A DNA stretch of 64,000 nucleotides, taken from assembly GCA_024278755.1 (NCBI GenBank), contig JAJRSO010000002.1:62001-126000 (forward strand). The letters run 5' to 3'. Below, one piece after another: positions 53,276-61,990 of the stretch. The notes below the pieces were generated by a model. It had not been told where the DNA came from. It did no database searches and worked only from the letters and a program-made list of their open reading frames with translations. The translations under genes were made by a program, and so were the position numbers. The DNA comes from Calditrichota bacterium. GTDB taxonomy: Bacteria; Calditrichota; Calditrichia; Calditrichales; Calditrichaceae. Positions within the stretch are counted from its first letter, which is position 1, and each line of letters starts with the position of its first letter.

Positions 53276-53929
53276 ATGTTAGTTAAAGAATGGATGTCCG
53301 AAAAAGTTATTTCCATTGATGCTTCGGAGACGCTTTCCGAAGCCATAAACACATTAAAACGAAACAAAATTCGTCGCTTGCCGGTGCTTGATAAAGAAAA
53401 ATTAGTAGGGATTGTATCCGACCGCGATTTAAAGGAAGCCGCGCCTTCAAAGGCGACGTCACTGGATATCTGGGAAGTGCATTACCTCATGTCCAAAATA
53501 AAGGTAAAAGATGTAATGACCCCCCGTCCGCTTACTATTGGGGCTGATACAACCATAGAAAAAGCCGCCATTTTAATGCATGATAAAAAAATAGGCGGCC
53601 TGCCGGTGGTTGATGATTCCGGCGTACTGATTGGAATGTTAACGGAACAGGATATTTTTGAAGCGTTAATCAGTATAACCGGCGCCCGCATTGCCGGGAC
53701 ACGGGTATCGGTTATTGTTCCGGACGAACCCGGTTCCATAAAGAATGTGTGCGAAGGAATGCGTAAGTATGATTTTAAATGTATCAGTATCTTAACGACG
53801 CACGAAGGAGTGGAAGCGGGCAAACGTAAGGTAATAATTCGCTTTCAGGCCGAAGAAAACAAGATAAATGAAATTATAAGTGAATTAAAAACAAAATATG
53901 CGAATGTTAATTTTACCAATGATTTCTAA
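53276..53929 (+). CDS. CBS-pair plus ACT-like domain protein (AcuB-like)
   Basis: A 217-residue cytoplasmic protein. Two CBS domains: residues ~1-60 (LVKEWMSEKVISIDASETL, KIRRLPVLDKEKLVGIVSDR) and ~75-135 (VKDVMTPRPLTIGADTTIE, GGLPVVDDSGVLIGMLTEQD), then an ACT-like domain from ~140 (RVSVIVPDEPGSIKNVCEGM). CBS pairs bind adenine nucleotides, and ACT domains bind amino acids. AcuB of Bacillus has the same layout. Its place at the end of the Liv operon suggests that it reports amino-acid or energy status to the importer. The target is unknown. GGGAGAAATCT is the ribosome site. Confidence 0.88.
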   Translation: MLVKEWMSEKVISIDASETLSEAINTLKRNKIRRLPVLDKEKLVGIVSDRDLKEAAPSKATSLDIWEVHYLMSKIKVKDVMTPRPLTIGADTTIEKAAILMHDKKIGGLPVVDDSGVLIGMLTEQDIFEALISITGARIAGTRVSVIVPDEPGSIKNVCEGMRKYDFKCISILTTHEGVEAGKRKVIIRFQAEENKINEIISELKTKYANVNFTNDF

Positions 53930-55766: not shown

Positions 55767-55800
55767 TTTGTTAAATCTGTTTTTACACCAGCGGCCGGAA

Positions 55801-55831
55801 AATGCTCAGTGGATTACTGGGCATTTTTTTT
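55801..55831 (+). terminator. Intrinsic terminator after cstA
   Basis: AATGCTCAGT, loop GGATT, ACTGGGCATT with one G-T pair, then a T run. Located 35 bases after the cstA stop. Confidence 0.88.
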
Positions 55832-55873: not shown

Positions 55874-56338
55874 ATGAAGACCGACATGATGTTAAAAAAA
55901 GAGCTTAAAACACTCTATTGGCGGCTGCTTGTGCCGGCTTTGGCAATAATTGTCATCAGCGAAATATTTAAAGCATTAGAAATTTTAAAGATACCTGGGC
56001 CGGATAAAAGTAGACAGATAGATGTGGCGGTATTTATTTTGGCTGCACTTTTTTCCACCGCATTGCCGGTGATGCGGCGGCTTGTTTTCGTAAATAAAGT
56101 GAAAAATCTAAAGATGGTAAACCCGGACGATTGGTGGCGTTTCGAAAAACAGGTATTGCAAATCGCGCTGGTAACGCCTTATTTTTTTGCAATGGCTTCC
56201 GTTTTGCAGTTTAATGGATTTTTTTATTCAACTGTTTTTTTGCTGGCCTTATATGCCGGCTACTTTTATTTTCCTTCGGGAAAGCGGATACGGTATGAAA
56301 TGCGGATTTTCCGAATAAACGAGGTGTCGGACGAATGA
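55874..56338 (+). CDS. Unknown four-span membrane protein, 154 aa
   Basis: I do not recognise the family. Hydrophobic spans lie at about residues 15-35, 50-67, 95-112 and 115-133, with a basic loop (MRRLVFVNKVKNLKMVNPDDWW) between the second and third. Both ends should be cytoplasmic. The stop overlaps the next gene (ATGA at 56335-56338) and the third gene of the set is an ArsA/Get3-like ATPase, so this is a candidate membrane partner of that ATPase. Coding is convincing from the coupling. Confidence 0.7.
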   Translation: MKTDMMLKKELKTLYWRLLVPALAIIVISEIFKALEILKIPGPDKSRQIDVAVFILAALFSTALPVMRRLVFVNKVKNLKMVNPDDWWRFEKQVLQIALVTPYFFAMASVLQFNGFFYSTVFLLALYAGYFYFPSGKRIRYEMRIFRINEVSDE

Positions 56339-56628
56339 TTCGTTATGTTTTAAACAGAATCCGGAAAGGCGTTGGCGGCGTGTGGGCTGTTTATCAGCAG
56401 CAGTCAAAAGCACACTTTACAGCCTCTTATGAAACGGAAGCGGCGGAGCTGGAAAATATTTTCGGCCTGCTTGTTTTGGGTTCGTTTGTGGGAATGCCAT
56501 CGCCACCCATGGCGATTACACTGGATATGATGCCGGTTATGGAAAAAGAACTTATTCGTATGCTGGAAAAAGTGGATACTGCTTCGTCGCCACTCTCGGA
56601 TTTGGCATCTGTTTTTGAAGTAGGTTAA
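56335..56628 (+). CDS. Unknown small protein, 97 aa, of the ArsA-like gene set
   Basis: No family recognised. Basic N terminus (RYVLNRIRKGVGGVW), then a mostly helical, acidic middle (YETEAAELENIFGLLVLGSF) and a short hydrophobic stretch LLVLGSFVGMPSPPMAITL around residues 43-62 with a PSPP turn. It overlaps the membrane protein gene by four bases and is one base from the ATPase gene. Size and location suggest an adaptor linking ATPase and membrane protein, but that is inference only. Confidence 0.65.
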   Translation: MIRYVLNRIRKGVGGVWAVYQQQSKAHFTASYETEAAELENIFGLLVLGSFVGMPSPPMAITLDMMPVMEKELIRMLEKVDTASSPLSDLASVFEVG

Positions 56629-56629
56629 A

Positions 56630-57535
56630 ATGAAAACAAAACCGGTAAGTTTATTTTTTTTGGGTAAGGGCGGCGTAGGGAAATCAACCTGTTCGGCGTT
56701 AACGGCGGTAGCCGCCGCCCAAAAAGGAGATTCCGTGTTACTGGTTTCGCTCGATCCCGCGCATAATCAATCCGATATATTTAAAACCGGTTTTAACGAA
56801 AAACCAAAAAAGATCACCGGAAATTTATTGGTTTTAGAAATCGACCAGCAAAAATGGGTGCAAAAATATCTGCTTGAGGTAAAAAGGCAGGTAAAGCAAT
56901 CGTATACATATTTAAGCGCATTTAATCTGGAACACTATTTTGATGTGATTAAATTCTCCCCCGGGATTGAAGAATATGCCCTGCTCATGGCCTATTCACA
57001 TATCCTGAAAGAACATAACGATAAAGATATAATTGTCTTCGATATGCCGCCTACCGCGTTGGCGTTAAAGTTTTTTGAACTGCCGCAGATTTCTCTAATC
57101 TGGCTAAGCCGGCTTTTGGACTTACGCAATGAAATATTAAGAAAACGGGAAATTATCACAACGATAAAAATCGGAAAAACTAAAATCGAGAGCGACAAAA
57201 TCACATCCCGACTGCGCGCGCAAATAGAAGTATATAAAACCATCCGACGCATCTTCTCCGATGTGCATAAAACCCGCATTAATCTGGTTCTTAATCCCGA
57301 TCAACTATCGTTAAACGAATCGCGTTTAATTGAACAGCAGTTGAGCGAAAAGGAATTGCCTATAAACAGACTGTTTCTGAATAAGTATGACCGGGAAAAT
57401 ATTACAGAGATTAAAAACAGTTTCTCCAAAATCCCAATGGTGCCAATACCTGTTGCAGCCTTTCCTCTGCTTGGACTGGATAATCTTAACGTCTTCCTGG
57501 CTGCAAAAGAATCCGGAATTCAGGATATTATTTAA
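56630..57535 (+). CDS. ArsA/Get3-like ATPase
   Basis: A 301-residue ATPase of the SIMIBI class. The deviant Walker A KGGVGKST is at residues 13-20. LVSLDPAHNQSDIF is the A-loop/switch I segment typical of ArsA/Get3 (DPAHNxSD), and FDMPPTALALKFFELPQ matches the Get3 switch II segment. NPDQLSLNESRLIEQQL and LFLNKYD complete the family pattern. It is a single ATPase unit, so it should act as a dimer like Get3, not a tandem ArsA. No ars genes are near. It ends a tight three-gene set with a membrane protein and a small protein. The cargo is unknown. Confidence 0.88.
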   Translation: MKTKPVSLFFLGKGGVGKSTCSALTAVAAAQKGDSVLLVSLDPAHNQSDIFKTGFNEKPKKITGNLLVLEIDQQKWVQKYLLEVKRQVKQSYTYLSAFNLEHYFDVIKFSPGIEEYALLMAYSHILKEHNDKDIIVFDMPPTALALKFFELPQISLIWLSRLLDLRNEILRKREIITTIKIGKTKIESDKITSRLRAQIEVYKTIRRIFSDVHKTRINLVLNPDQLSLNESRLIEQQLSEKELPINRLFLNKYDRENITEIKNSFSKIPMVPIPVAAFPLLGLDNLNVFLAAKESGIQDII

Positions 57536-57679: not shown

Positions 57680-60600
57680 ATGCATTTTTTAATCTTTCTA
57701 AAACGAATAACCATATTATCTCTCTTTTTAACCATGGTTTATCCCCTAAACGCTCAGGTTCTGAATTTTCGTGTGTTCGGTGCGGAAGAAGGCCTCATTC
57801 AGTCGCAGGTACATACAATATTACAGGATAACGACGGTTATATGTGGTTTGGAACCGTAAACGGAATATCGGTTTACGACGGTCGTGAGTTTCAATCACT
57901 AACGGTCAAAGACGGTTTGGCCGCAAATTTTATCCTTTCGGGCGTAAAAGACAAAGACGGGAACTTGTGGTTCGGCCACCGCAACGGAATGCTAACAAAG
58001 TATAACTGGCAAACAAAAGAAATGGAAAAAATATATCTTTCACAAATGCTGAAGGATTCTACCAGTACCAGCGTAAACACTCTGTTTGTTGATGATGCAG
58101 GACGTGTATGGGCGACCACCACAGGCTGGGGCGCTTATTATTTTGAAAAAGACAGCCTGTATCATTTAAGTACGGAAAACGGTCTGACATCCAACAATGT
58201 AAACGGTATCGGACAAGATAAAGAGGGCCGTATCTGGTTAGGAACGGATTCTTTAATTACCATTTACTCGCCTGATAAGGGCAAATTTGATAGCATTAGA
58301 ATTAAAGAAAAGACAAAAAATATATATGCGAACTCTTTTTTATCAGACGAAAAAGGATTTATGTGGATTGGCACTATTTCCAGAGGGCTCTTTCAGTATT
58401 ATCCGGAGTCAAAAAAAGTTTTCCATTTTACCGAAAAAGAGGGTTTGCCCAACATAAAAATAAATACCATTTTTCGTGATCACAGTGGTAAAATCTGGTT
58501 GAGCAATGAATTTGTGGGCGTTGCCTACTCCGTCCGTTTAAGCTCCGGAAAAATTATTTTTAAGAATTTAACAACTGCTAACGGTCTGCCTTTTGACGGG
58601 AATTATGTAGTGACCGAAGACAGGGAAAATAATTTATGGTTCGGGACTTCGGGAAGGGGAGCTGCGCAACTGCGTGACAAACGCTTTGAACTATGGGTGC
58701 CCGGAAAGGATGATGAAGAACGGAGTGTCTGGAGTATCTTTCTCGATTCTAAGGGAAATCACTGGTTCGGCACCGGAGACGGTGTTGTGGTCCTGGATAA
58801 AGATGCCCGCCAAACGAAGGTGTTAAAAAAATACAACGATAAACGTCTGAATGATATTTTTCAGATTCGGCAGGATGATAAAGGAAAGATCTGGTTCACT
58901 TCAAATTTATCCGGTTTATATTCGATTAATAAAAGTACTCAACAAATTCAGCCGTTTCGTTTGCCGGACTCTTTAAGCAGGCATATAATCAGTACGGTAG
59001 AGTTTGATAAAAGCGGGAATATCTGGCTGGGCGGAGCGCGGCTGGGTTTGTTCCGTTACAATCCGAGAACAAAAAAATACAAACGTATGCTTGCCCCCAA
59101 TGCGGATTATACAAAAAATATAATGAATATTTCCTTTAAAGATAGTAAGTCCGTGCTTTGGTTCGGCCTGGTAAACGGCGGTTTGTACAAATATGACGGA
59201 ACGGCTTTTGGCAAGGTGCCCAATGCGCCGAATACCATTACAAATATTGTGGAAGGCACAAAAAATGACTATTGGATAATAAATGACAAAGATCAGCTGT
59301 TTCGTTATAAAAACGGAAAATTCAGCGAATTTGGTAAAGACCATGGGTTGGAGGGAAATGCGCTTTTTTCCGTCTTGGCCGATTCGAACAGCGTATGGGT
59401 GGGCACCAGTAGTGGTTTGGCCCAGTGTAAATATAATGATACGGGTTTTAAATTTTTTAATAATAAAGAAGGGTTCCCGTTTGGAGAAGCGAATGAAGGA
59501 GCTGTTTTTAAAGATAGCGAAGGCCTGCTGTGGTTCGGTACAATTGACGGCGCGGTCTGTTTTCATCCCGATCTGGAAACCGTAAGCAAAATTCCCCCGT
59601 TAGTTCATATCCGTAAATTAAAACTGTTTTTAAAAAATATTCCCTTTCCTCCGAAGGCAGAATTCCTGCCCGGGCAAAACTATTTAACATTTGATTTTAT
59701 TGGCATCAATATGTCTTTGCCCGAGGCGGTGCGTTATCAATATCGGCTGTTGGGAATAGATGAAGACTGGCTGCCGGAAACATCTTTGGCATCGGCCACG
59801 TATCCGAATTTATCGCCGGGTTCATACACGTTTCAGGTGAAAGCGCGAAACGGAGATAATATCTGGACACCGCAACCGGCAGAATACAGCTTTACTATTT
59901 TAGCTCCTTTCTGGCAAACCTGGTGGTTTTATCTGCTGCTGGCGGGGGCTTTTATTCTTCTTGTCTATCTTTTTATTTACTGGCGCACCACAGAAGTGAA
60001 AAAAATGAATATGATGCTTGGCAGGAAGGTAGAAGAACGCACCGCTGAACTACAAAAGGAAAAAGACTCGGTAGAAGCCGCACTTGCCGCATTAAAAGAA
60101 AGTGAAACTAAATTTCGTACCTACACCGAACTTACCAGTTCCGGTATTTATATCCATCAGGATAATAGATTACAATATGTAAATAAGGCTGGCCGCGAGT
60201 TATCCGGATACGCTTCAGAGGAATTATTACAAATGAATATCTGGGATATTGTTCATCCGGATTACAAAGATCTGCTAAAAAAACGGTTTTCCAAACGAGC
60301 TGCCGGGGAAAAAGTTCCGGACCAGTATGAGTTTAAATATATCAAAAAGAACGGTGACGAAGGCTGGCTGGATTTTTCCGGGCTTTTGATAGAGTATAAT
60401 AATAAACCCGCCTTACTGGCAACGGTGTTTGATATTACAGAACGCAAACGTGCCGAAGAAGCGCTGCTTGCCGAAAAAGAACGTCTTGCCGTAACGCTGC
60501 GTTCCATTGGAGACGGTGTAATAACAACCGATATTCAGGGAAGAATCACATTGATCAATGAACGGGCTAAGGCGGTAATCGGTTATAAAACCGCTAACCC

Positions 60601-61990
60601 AATCAATGAAAAATTAGAAAAAATTTTATTGCTCTTTGATGAACAAACCGGAAAAAAAATAATTAATCCGGTGGATGTTATGTCTGCCATTCACGGGCAG
60701 GAATCCATGTATACTAATTGTGTATTAAAAACCCTTGACGGCGGACAAAAGTTTATTTCGTTTGCAAGTTCTCCGCTGAAGGATAAAAACAGTAGGCGCA
60801 TAGGTATGGTTTTTGTTTTGCGGGATATTACCGAAAAGCGTCAAATGGAACAGGAACTGTTTAAAAGCCAGAAATTGGAATCGGTGGGCGTGTTGGCAGG
60901 AGGAATCGCCCACGATTTTAATAATATTTTAACGGCCATTATCGGGAACCTTTCACTGGCAAAGATTAATCTCGAACCTTCGGACCTCCTTTATGACCGT
61001 ATCGAAAAAGCGGAAAAAGCTTCTGCGCGGGCACAGGAGCTTACCCAACAACTGCTTACGTTTTCCAAAGGAGGAGCGCCGGTAAAACGGGCGGCCTCCA
61101 TAGAAGATGTCGTTAAAGATTCCGTTGGCTTTGTTTTAAGCGGTTCCAATGTTAAATGCCGCTTAAAGTTTGAAGAGGATTTGCCGCCGGTAGAGATTGA
61201 TGCGGGACAGATTAGCCAGGTGATGCAGAATCTGGTAATCAATGCCGATCAGGCCATGCCCCAGGGGGGCGACCTTGATATAAGCGTAAGTTTACGTGAA
61301 TTTAGAAAAGGTCGGAAACGGTTAAATCCCGGCGTGTATCTGCAAGTGGATGTGGCGGATCAGGGCATAGGAATTTCGAAAGAATATCTGGATAAAATTT
61401 TTGATCCCTTTTTTACGACCAAACAGAGTGGCAGCGGACTGGGACTGGCAACATCCTATTCGATAATTCAAAAGCACGGCGGTCTGTTGTCTGTTTCTTC
61501 GGAAATCGGAAAAGGAACGGTCTTTACCATTTATTTACCCGTTGCGCGGGGCGTAAGAGTTTCGCATTCTTCACAACAGGAAGACCTGTCCGTTATTCGG
61601 GGCAAAGGGAGGATACTGGTAATGGACGATGAGTTATTTGTTCAGGAAACCGCCGTTACCATGCTGGAGGGGTTTGGTTTTGAAGCCGTGGCGGCAGAAG
61701 ACGGAGTGGAAACCCTGGAAAAATATAAAAAGGCGCGCGATGAAAGGGCTCCGTTTAATGCGGTAATTATGGATTTAACTATCCCCGGGGGAATGGGTGG
61801 CCGGCAAACAGTGGAAGAGCTGTTAAAAATAGATGCGGATGCGGTTGCAATTGTTTCCAGCGGATATTCCAATGATCCGGTAATGGCTGATTTTAAACAG
61901 TATGGTTTTAAGGGCTGTCTAAAAAAACCCTACCGGCTGGAAGAATTAATAGGTATTTTAAAAGAACTGGGTCTTACCATATCGAACTAA
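57680..61990 (+). CDS. Giant hybrid two-component sensor: propeller, Y_Y_Y, PAS, kinase, receiver
   Basis: A 1436-residue inner-membrane protein. The signal peptide ends LNA at residue 25, exposing Gln. Residues ~30-690 carry repeats of two-component regulator propeller blades, each with a WFGT or WLGT turn (for example YMWFGTVNGISVYDG). A Y_Y_Y domain (~690-750) precedes a membrane span (~753-775), a coiled segment, two PAS domains, the kinase core with His1078 (GGIAHDFNNILTAI) and N box NLVINADQAMPQGG, and a receiver with Asp1365 (VIMDLTIPGGMGG). Bacteroides HTCS proteins end with an AraC domain; this one has none, so output must pass to another protein. The next plus-strand gene is a TonB-dependent receptor. 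Confidence 0.94.
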   Translation: MHFLIFLKRITILSLFLTMVYPLNAQVLNFRVFGAEEGLIQSQVHTILQDNDGYMWFGTVNGISVYDGREFQSLTVKDGLAANFILSGVKDKDGNLWFGHRNGMLTKYNWQTKEMEKIYLSQMLKDSTSTSVNTLFVDDAGRVWATTTGWGAYYFEKDSLYHLSTENGLTSNNVNGIGQDKEGRIWLGTDSLITIYSPDKGKFDSIRIKEKTKNIYANSFLSDEKGFMWIGTISRGLFQYYPESKKVFHFTEKEGLPNIKINTIFRDHSGKIWLSNEFVGVAYSVRLSSGKIIFKNLTTANGLPFDGNYVVTEDRENNLWFGTSGRGAAQLRDKRFELWVPGKDDEERSVWSIFLDSKGNHWFGTGDGVVVLDKDARQTKVLKKYNDKRLNDIFQIRQDDKGKIWFTSNLSGLYSINKSTQQIQPFRLPDSLSRHIISTVEFDKSGNIWLGGARLGLFRYNPRTKKYKRMLAPNADYTKNIMNISFKDSKSVLWFGLVNGGLYKYDGTAFGKVPNAPNTITNIVEGTKNDYWIINDKDQLFRYKNGKFSEFGKDHGLEGNALFSVLADSNSVWVGTSSGLAQCKYNDTGFKFFNNKEGFPFGEANEGAVFKDSEGLLWFGTIDGAVCFHPDLETVSKIPPLVHIRKLKLFLKNIPFPPKAEFLPGQNYLTFDFIGINMSLPEAVRYQYRLLGIDEDWLPETSLASATYPNLSPGSYTFQVKARNGDNIWTPQPAEYSFTILAPFWQTWWFYLLLAGAFILLVYLFIYWRTTEVKKMNMMLGRKVEERTAELQKEKDSVEAALAALKESETKFRTYTELTSSGIYIHQDNRLQYVNKAGRELSGYASEELLQMNIWDIVHPDYKDLLKKRFSKRAAGEKVPDQYEFKYIKKNGDEGWLDFSGLLIEYNNKPALLATVFDITERKRAEEALLAEKERLAVTLRSIGDGVITTDIQGRITLINERAKAVIGYKTANPINEKLEKILLLFDEQTGKKIINPVDVMSAIHGQESMYTNCVLKTLDGGQKFISFASSPLKDKNSRRIGMVFVLRDITEKRQMEQELFKSQKLESVGVLAGGIAHDFNNILTAIIGNLSLAKINLEPSDLLYDRIEKAEKASARAQELTQQLLTFSKGGAPVKRAASIEDVVKDSVGFVLSGSNVKCRLKFEEDLPPVEIDAGQISQVMQNLVINADQAMPQGGDLDISVSLREFRKGRKRLNPGVYLQVDVADQGIGISKEYLDKIFDPFFTTKQSGSGLGLATSYSIIQKHGGLLSVSSEIGKGTVFTIYLPVARGVRVSHSSQQEDLSVIRGKGRILVMDDELFVQETAVTMLEGFGFEAVAAEDGVETLEKYKKARDERAPFNAVIMDLTIPGGMGGRQTVEELLKIDADAVAIVSSGYSNDPVMADFKQYGFKGCLKKPYRLEELIGILKELGLTISN

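Follow-up and report, generated by a model that had tools for sequence, protein, structure and literature searches.

A CstA-CstX-ArsA-type gene set with an extra small membrane protein in a Calditrichota bacterium, and a candidate role for its Get3-fold ATPase

A single-domain ATPase of the Get3/ArsA fold is encoded in a Calditrichota bacterium together with a CstA-family transporter and a small CstX-type protein, and it very likely serves the transporter in some way. The genes lie in a stretch of 64,000 nucleotides (the window) and are the CstA-CstX-ArsA set described in 2010 by Castillo and Saier plus an extra small membrane protein, not a new targeting machine. How the ATPase would serve CstA is a question of several readings. 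That ATPase and CstX together switch or activate, depending on ATP, a CstA transporter that is itself driven by protons has, in our judgment, about an even chance of being correct. CstA would be the membrane transporter, CstX (orfB) would link it to the ATPase in a physical complex, and the ATP cycle of the latter would act on CstA through CstX. The extra protein, orfA, would be an added membrane subunit of the window's branch.

The three genes singled out by the initial annotation (orfA, orfB and the ATPase gene) are open at the coordinates given there, all on the forward strand, and the tight spacing that it described is present, with a 4-base overlap between orfA and orfB and a one-base gap between orfB and the ATPase gene (Table 1). 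The gene set as drawn there was correct for these three but lacked the upstream cstA, which lies on the same strand 107 bp 5' of orfA. Upstream of the window cstA (53276-53929) is the gene of a protein with a CBS domain and a weak match to ACT, and such a protein also precedes cstA in two relatives, G009 (L084, 2538-3188) and G004 (L096, 2053-2703).

Table 1. Features of the cstA region of the window and what identifies them
Feature	Coordinates	Strand	Basis
cstA, CstA-family transporter, 573 aa	54045..55766	+	PF02554, E 1.2e-133
Hairpin with T run resembling a terminator, in the cstA-orfA gap	55797..55829	+	
orfA, membrane protein, 154 aa	55874..56338	+	open frame, hydropathy
orfB, CstX-type small partner, 97 aa	56335..56628	+	weak cory-CC-star match, helical-hairpin model
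Single-domain ArsA/Get3-fold ATPase, 301 aa	56630..57535	+	PF02374, TIGR00345
Hybrid sensor kinase (Reg_prop, Y_Y_Y, PAS, HisKA, HATPase, receiver)	57680..61990	+	

The operons of Castillo and Saier give the closest comparison. Parts of the main text of PMC2963123 report CstA together with an ArsA homologue in 26 cases, of which 24 also have a CstX of ~90 aa; the ArsA homologues of these clusters are single-domain proteins of ~300-330 aa without arsenic genes, and the CstA, CstX and ArsA trees largely match. The window shares the single-domain ArsA homologue of ~300 aa (301 here), the adjacent CstX of ~90 aa (97 here), the clustered cstA and, among the neighbors tested, the lack of arsenic genes, and differs in having orfA between cstA and cstX. 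The same main text, in the parts available, names no such four-span protein, and the strings "Calditri", "Desulfovibrio" and "Spirochaet" are absent from it.

The ATPase has one PF02374 stretch (E 9.6e-53), scores 170.3 bits against TIGR00345 (GET3_arsA_TRC40, cut-off 135) and gave a structure model (pLDDT 89.3) with the Get3/ArsA fold, in agreement with its first description as a single-unit Get3-like enzyme. The best match of the model was the archaeal TRC40 chain 3zq6_A (Z 28.6, rmsd 2.9, 273 residues), and yeast Get3 scored Z 25.8, the closest solved structures being archaeal and eukaryotic Get3; ArsA chains score at most Z 24.6, reached by a bacterial one, so Get3 and ArsA are not separable by fold. 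The Gly and Lys residues of the P-loop, S40 and D42 are invariant in 24 of 24 ATPases, and the protein is therefore likely to be an active ATPase, as judged from these sequences. It probably works as a homodimer. Besides the fold over 273 residues, an intact P-loop is shared with Get3/TRC40 (3zq6, 3ug7). The differences are the gene company, here a transporter, and the CxxC zinc motif of the Get3 dimer interface, which the aligned archaeal Get3 chains carry inside an insertion and which is found in none of the 24 ATPases, in line with the zinc-site absence that the initial annotation had proposed to check. Some Get3 proteins also lack CxxC, according to parts of PMC10248533.

Although the PF02374 match is one to the ArsA family, we give almost no credence to a function as an arsenite efflux ATPase. 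The arsenite ATPase ArsA has two tandem domains and the protein described here has one. Three arsenite-site cysteines are listed for ArsA in parts of PMC2963123; the window ATPase has one cysteine in total, and conserved arsenite cysteines are lacking among the 24 ATPases, no cysteine column being filled in more than 6 of them. The claim that no arsenic genes are nearby also held, the ATPase itself being the only such gene among six neighborhood proteins tested against Pfam, the three genes included. We would not class the protein as an ArsA; it is at most a putative Get3, and it may work in a Get3-like way. A phage or defense origin was considered and rejected: PHROGs returned one match, of the ATPase to a ParA-like family, and PADLOC one weak match to 38 residues of the ATPase (E 4.4e-6). 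Tandem ATPase genes, perhaps encoding a heterodimer, follow a divergent CstX in 13 loci of the Desulfovibrio-type phylum (L158, L159, L161, L163, L164 and L167-L174) and in one of the Spirochaeta-type phylum sample (L194).

The identification of orfB fits the CstX of Castillo and Saier by size, by place and by paired Thermococcus copies, not by sequence: parts of PMC2963123 describe paired CstX in T. kodakarensis, and we found paired copies in four Thermococcaceae loci. Their CstX has one transmembrane segment; the window protein has one hydrophobic stretch, and among 30 relatives 13 attain a mean hydropathy of 1.4. Two Pfam scans, one of the window orfB and one of 30 CstX proteins, gave no family, and the sole NCBIfam match of orfB was a weak one to cory-CC-star (NF041419; 29.2 bits, cut-off 80), a model that all 30 CstX match at E ≤0.1 (best, 2.2e-8). 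We take the name to refer to a C-terminal CC. The window protein, besides scoring below the cut-off, differs in ending in EVG, and a CC end is present in only one of its 30 relatives (L107). The term "cory-CC-star" was absent from the literature searched. Residues E35, E38, L39, F43, G49 and G53 are invariant in the 30 CstX. Modeling gave, with modest confidence (pLDDT 70.6, pTM 0.36), a helical hairpin, and a fold search started from it found nothing better than E 8.8; a search by sequence for solved relatives gave one chance-level match (E 0.87). Long frames in L192 and L202 that could have been taken for CstX-CstA fusions proved to be overlapping frames. A Thermococcus CstX had no plasmid match.

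An alternative is a dedicated assembly factor, an ATPase that would handle either CstA itself or the hydrophobic stretch in CstX, help to insert it into the membrane and stand outside the working transporter. The nearest solved structures, both Get3, and the one hydrophobic stretch of the window CstX (residues 45-63) speak for it; against it, the hydropathy limit of 1.4 is reached by only 13 of 30 CstX, the ATPases lack CxxC, and the loci read show no gene for a receptor or a co-chaperone that repeatedly accompanies the set. We regard this alternative as rather unlikely.

Recurrence was assessed in 40 Calditrichota relatives. A strong ATPase match (E <1e-55) was obtained in 19 genomes and an orfB match (E ≤0.01) in 19, 18 of which belong to the strong-ATPase set; the remaining one, G029, has a weak orfB match (E 1.2e-5) and no ATPase match. 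All but one of the 19 strong-ATPase genomes have the two genes next to each other. The exception, G005, lacks orfB as well as the front of the ATPase gene in a broken region (L081), where cstA and the rear portion of the ATPase gene are separated by unrelated sequence; either the locus itself is disrupted or the assembly is at fault. PF02554 (CstA) was detected in 24 of 40 genomes. Among the 18 genomes with the pair, 16 carry cstA on the same contig, 15 of them within ~6.6 kb and one, G016, ~38 kb away. No CstA was found in G001 and G011, genomes less than 75% complete in which the pair sits near a contig end. Two other genomes count against a strict tie between the pair and CstA and against the switch or activator: G008 has a close CstA with neither CstX nor ATPase beside it or found elsewhere in the genome, and in G031 the 10 kb read around a divergent CstX-ATPase pair contain no CstA, which is encoded on a different contig.

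A wider set of 85 loci was assembled from 26 loci of a contig search (orfB alignment) and 29, 8 and 22 new loci from three phylum samples. The 26 comprise 12 Calditrichota loci, mostly from genomes already among the 40, one locus labeled Caldisericaceae (its contig is that of G012, of the window's family), five Desulfovibrio-type/Desulfobacterales, one planctomycete, four Thermococcaceae and three Spirochaetes loci. All 26 have the ATPase gene directly downstream and a same-strand cstA upstream, which in three is ~6.5 kb away. The phylum sample around G041 (Desulfovibrio type) had orfB in 33 of its 198 genomes, the one around G050 (Spirochaeta type) in 8 of 198, and the one around G046 (Thermococcus type) in 75 of 101. 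An ATPase follows orfB and a same-strand cstA precedes it in 27 and 25, respectively, of the 29 new Desulfovibrio-type loci read, in 7 and 7 of the 8 Spirochaeta-type loci, and in all 22 of the Thermococcus-type loci.

In total, the ATPase follows CstX in 82 and a same-strand cstA precedes it in 80 of the 85 loci, all of which were found through orfB and thus test the company of orfB rather than that of every such ATPase. L192, with its overlapping frame, was counted as having cstA. Neither gene was present in L160, L162 and L195, while in L173 cstA is on the other strand and in L174 none is in the stretch read; these three loci without the ATPase and five without same-strand cstA weigh against the switch or activator. 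The pairing of orfB and ATPase, seen in 18 of 19 strong-ATPase genomes and 82 of 85 loci, is therefore not due to chance. The loci span five groups, namely, Calditrichota, Desulfovibrio-type bacteria, a planctomycete, Spirochaetes and Thermococcus, and this association across bacteria and archaea speaks, with the 18 pair-bearing Calditrichota genomes, for a switch or activator of CstA.

The initial annotation had taken orfA to be the membrane partner of the ATPase. The genetic tie of the ATPase to a small helical protein and to a membrane protein was upheld, but the conserved membrane partner is CstA instead. The orfA profile matched 2 of the 40 Calditrichota relatives, compared with 19 with a strong ATPase match, so that close relatives do carry the ATPase without orfA, and orfA is missing from most relatives with the ATPase. 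A general machine for targeting tail-anchored or other membrane proteins, in which orfA would be the receptor and orfB the adaptor, could draw on the Get3 fold; it is a very improbable reading, however, given this distribution of orfA and the single transporter gene that accompanies the pair in 80 of the 85 loci, and we saw no sign of tail-anchored clients or of a receptor.

Where orfA does occur, its place is constant. It was found as a single copy in the 2 Calditrichota relatives and in 4 of the 198 genomes sampled from the Desulfovibrio-type phylum, between cstA and cstX in all 6 genome copies; the same position was seen in 6 of the 26 contig-search loci, two of which are the already counted G009 and G041. 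G004 has a 43-aa piece of orfA at a contig edge, 3' of cstA, and in G003, G006, G013 and G014, cstA and orfB overlap or nearly do so, leaving no room for orfA. The gene is an optional member of the CstA-CstX-ATPase set. The protein has four hydrophobic stretches of 19 residues with a mean of at least 1.2, three of them with at least 1.4, and no convincing family in Pfam or NCBIfam, and it is apparently an extra membrane subunit new to description. It was also compared with CstY, which parts of PMC2963123 name in archaea only, and this identity was rejected: CstY-like proteins have ~220 aa and one hydrophobic start (by eye) and are encoded downstream of the ATPase, and a CstY-like profile had no match in the window. 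We found such ~220-aa proteins in four Thermococcaceae loci (L123, L124, L126 and L127) and 3' of the ATPase gene in three Spirochaete loci (L128, L129 and L130), with 28-30% identity between the two groups.

The choice between modes of action depends largely on Escherichia coli. Its CstA is a proton-gradient-driven pyruvate transporter inhibited by protonophores, according to parts of PMC7730263, and by this analogy the substrate of the window CstA is probably pyruvate or another small nutrient. YbdD, a small protein encoded beside E. coli cstA, is required for full CstA uptake, which fell to 13% of the wild-type level without cstA and to 20% without ybdD, in the portions of PMC5847655 available. 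Both observations are consistent with a switch or activator, as are the matching trees and association reported in parts of PMC2963123 and the nucleotide-binding residues kept in the ATPase. Castillo and Saier proposed, in the same parts of that paper, that ArsA energizes CstA through CstX, with ATP hydrolysis itself driving transport as ArsA was held to do for ArsB. The gene linkage and the coevolving trees fit such a primary energizer too, but the E. coli transporter is proton driven and no ArsA-type gene is present beside E. coli cstA or btsT; we therefore favor a switch over direct drive by ATP and think the energizer improbable, roughly on a par with the assembly factor. The E. coli evidence against it is not decisive, since CstA and BtsT of E. 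coli form a different, longer branch. That E. coli CstA works without an adjoining ArsA-type ATPase also counts against the switch or activator, and with no such ATPase there and no detectable homology between CstX and YbdD or YjiX, the analogy is a loose one.

The likeness to the E. coli CstA-YbdD and BtsT-YjiX-YjiA systems lies in the order of the genes, with a small protein encoded after a transporter of the CstA family; to these the bts locus adds a P-loop NTPase gene. YbdD and YjiX end in CC; hhalign of CstX against a YbdD/YjiX profile (made from only the two E. coli sequences) gave a probability of 0.7%, and PF04328 was not among the matches of the 30 CstX at E values up to 1. YjiA is a G3E GTPase and not ArsA-type, as indicated by annotation and parts of PMC2770081. 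A G3E GTPase gene takes the place of the ATPase in E. coli btsT-yjiX-yjiA and on one Rahnella plasmid, where btsR and a sensor kinase adjoin cstA-yjiX-yjiA. Among 69 plasmid records matched, seven YbdD-type loci were opened and one had the GTPase; none was annotated beside E. coli cstA-ybdD or at the other six plasmid loci (one of them without an annotated cstA), an absence that is weak evidence for the plasmids because their gene tables are incomplete. The parallel of GTPase and ATPase is thus narrow, and the idea that YbdD-type CstA generally has the G3E GTPase as its partner was rejected, the GTPase gene occurring with btsT and at one of seven plasmid loci and not with E. coli cstA.

The hairpin between cstA and orfA (15 pairs, -16.3 kcal/mol, z -2.83) was equaled in stability by 1 of 200 shuffles, in a scan with no overall excess of terminator-like sites (9 found, 6.8 expected). 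It might weaken or split the transcript between cstA and orfA and is a point against a switch acting on this CstA. It is not present in relatives whose cstA and cstX overlap. Downstream, the Reg_prop-type sensor kinase 3' of the ATPase gene on the same strand may be a regulator of the gene set. Five further Calditrichota loci (L105, L108, L109, L082 and L117) have a similar long frame after the ATPase, with the sensor-kinase domains checked in L108 and L109 only.

A sequence search for solved relatives of CstA gave none at E 0.1. On a quick, rough CstA tree, built from 59 rows of which many were shortened by locus ends, the CstX-ATPase label required 4 changes (shuffled mean, 12.8) and the YbdD label 1; with several long branches and warnings, we draw little from it. 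By tree path the window CstA is nearest to orfA-bearing Desulfovibrio-type CstA, although the CstA with which it shares most identity, 64%, is from Calditrichota. A transfer of the window cstA is possible, with middling support. A plasmid search with the region matched two Acinetobacter records, by one 77-base match each inside cstA. In G009, a TGA codon in frame divides cstA (L084, 3253-4977) into two reading frames.

The tie between CstA and an ArsA-type ATPase has been in print since 2010, and we found no experimental test of it in the literature searched. Its recurrence from Calditrichota to Thermococcus suggests that it is a basic feature of how CstA transporters work, and orfA here and the CstY-like proteins of Spirochaetes suggest that extra membrane subunits were gained in some lineages. 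As a tentative and rather speculative extension, a Get3-fold dimer would dock through CstX, with its ATP state setting CstA activity; orfA and the CstY-like proteins would be lineage-specific subunits, and YjiX-YjiA, a G3E GTPase with a small protein unrelated to CstX, would be a convergent arrangement in some enterobacteria. If this is true, nucleotide-switched CstA transporters would be a general class.
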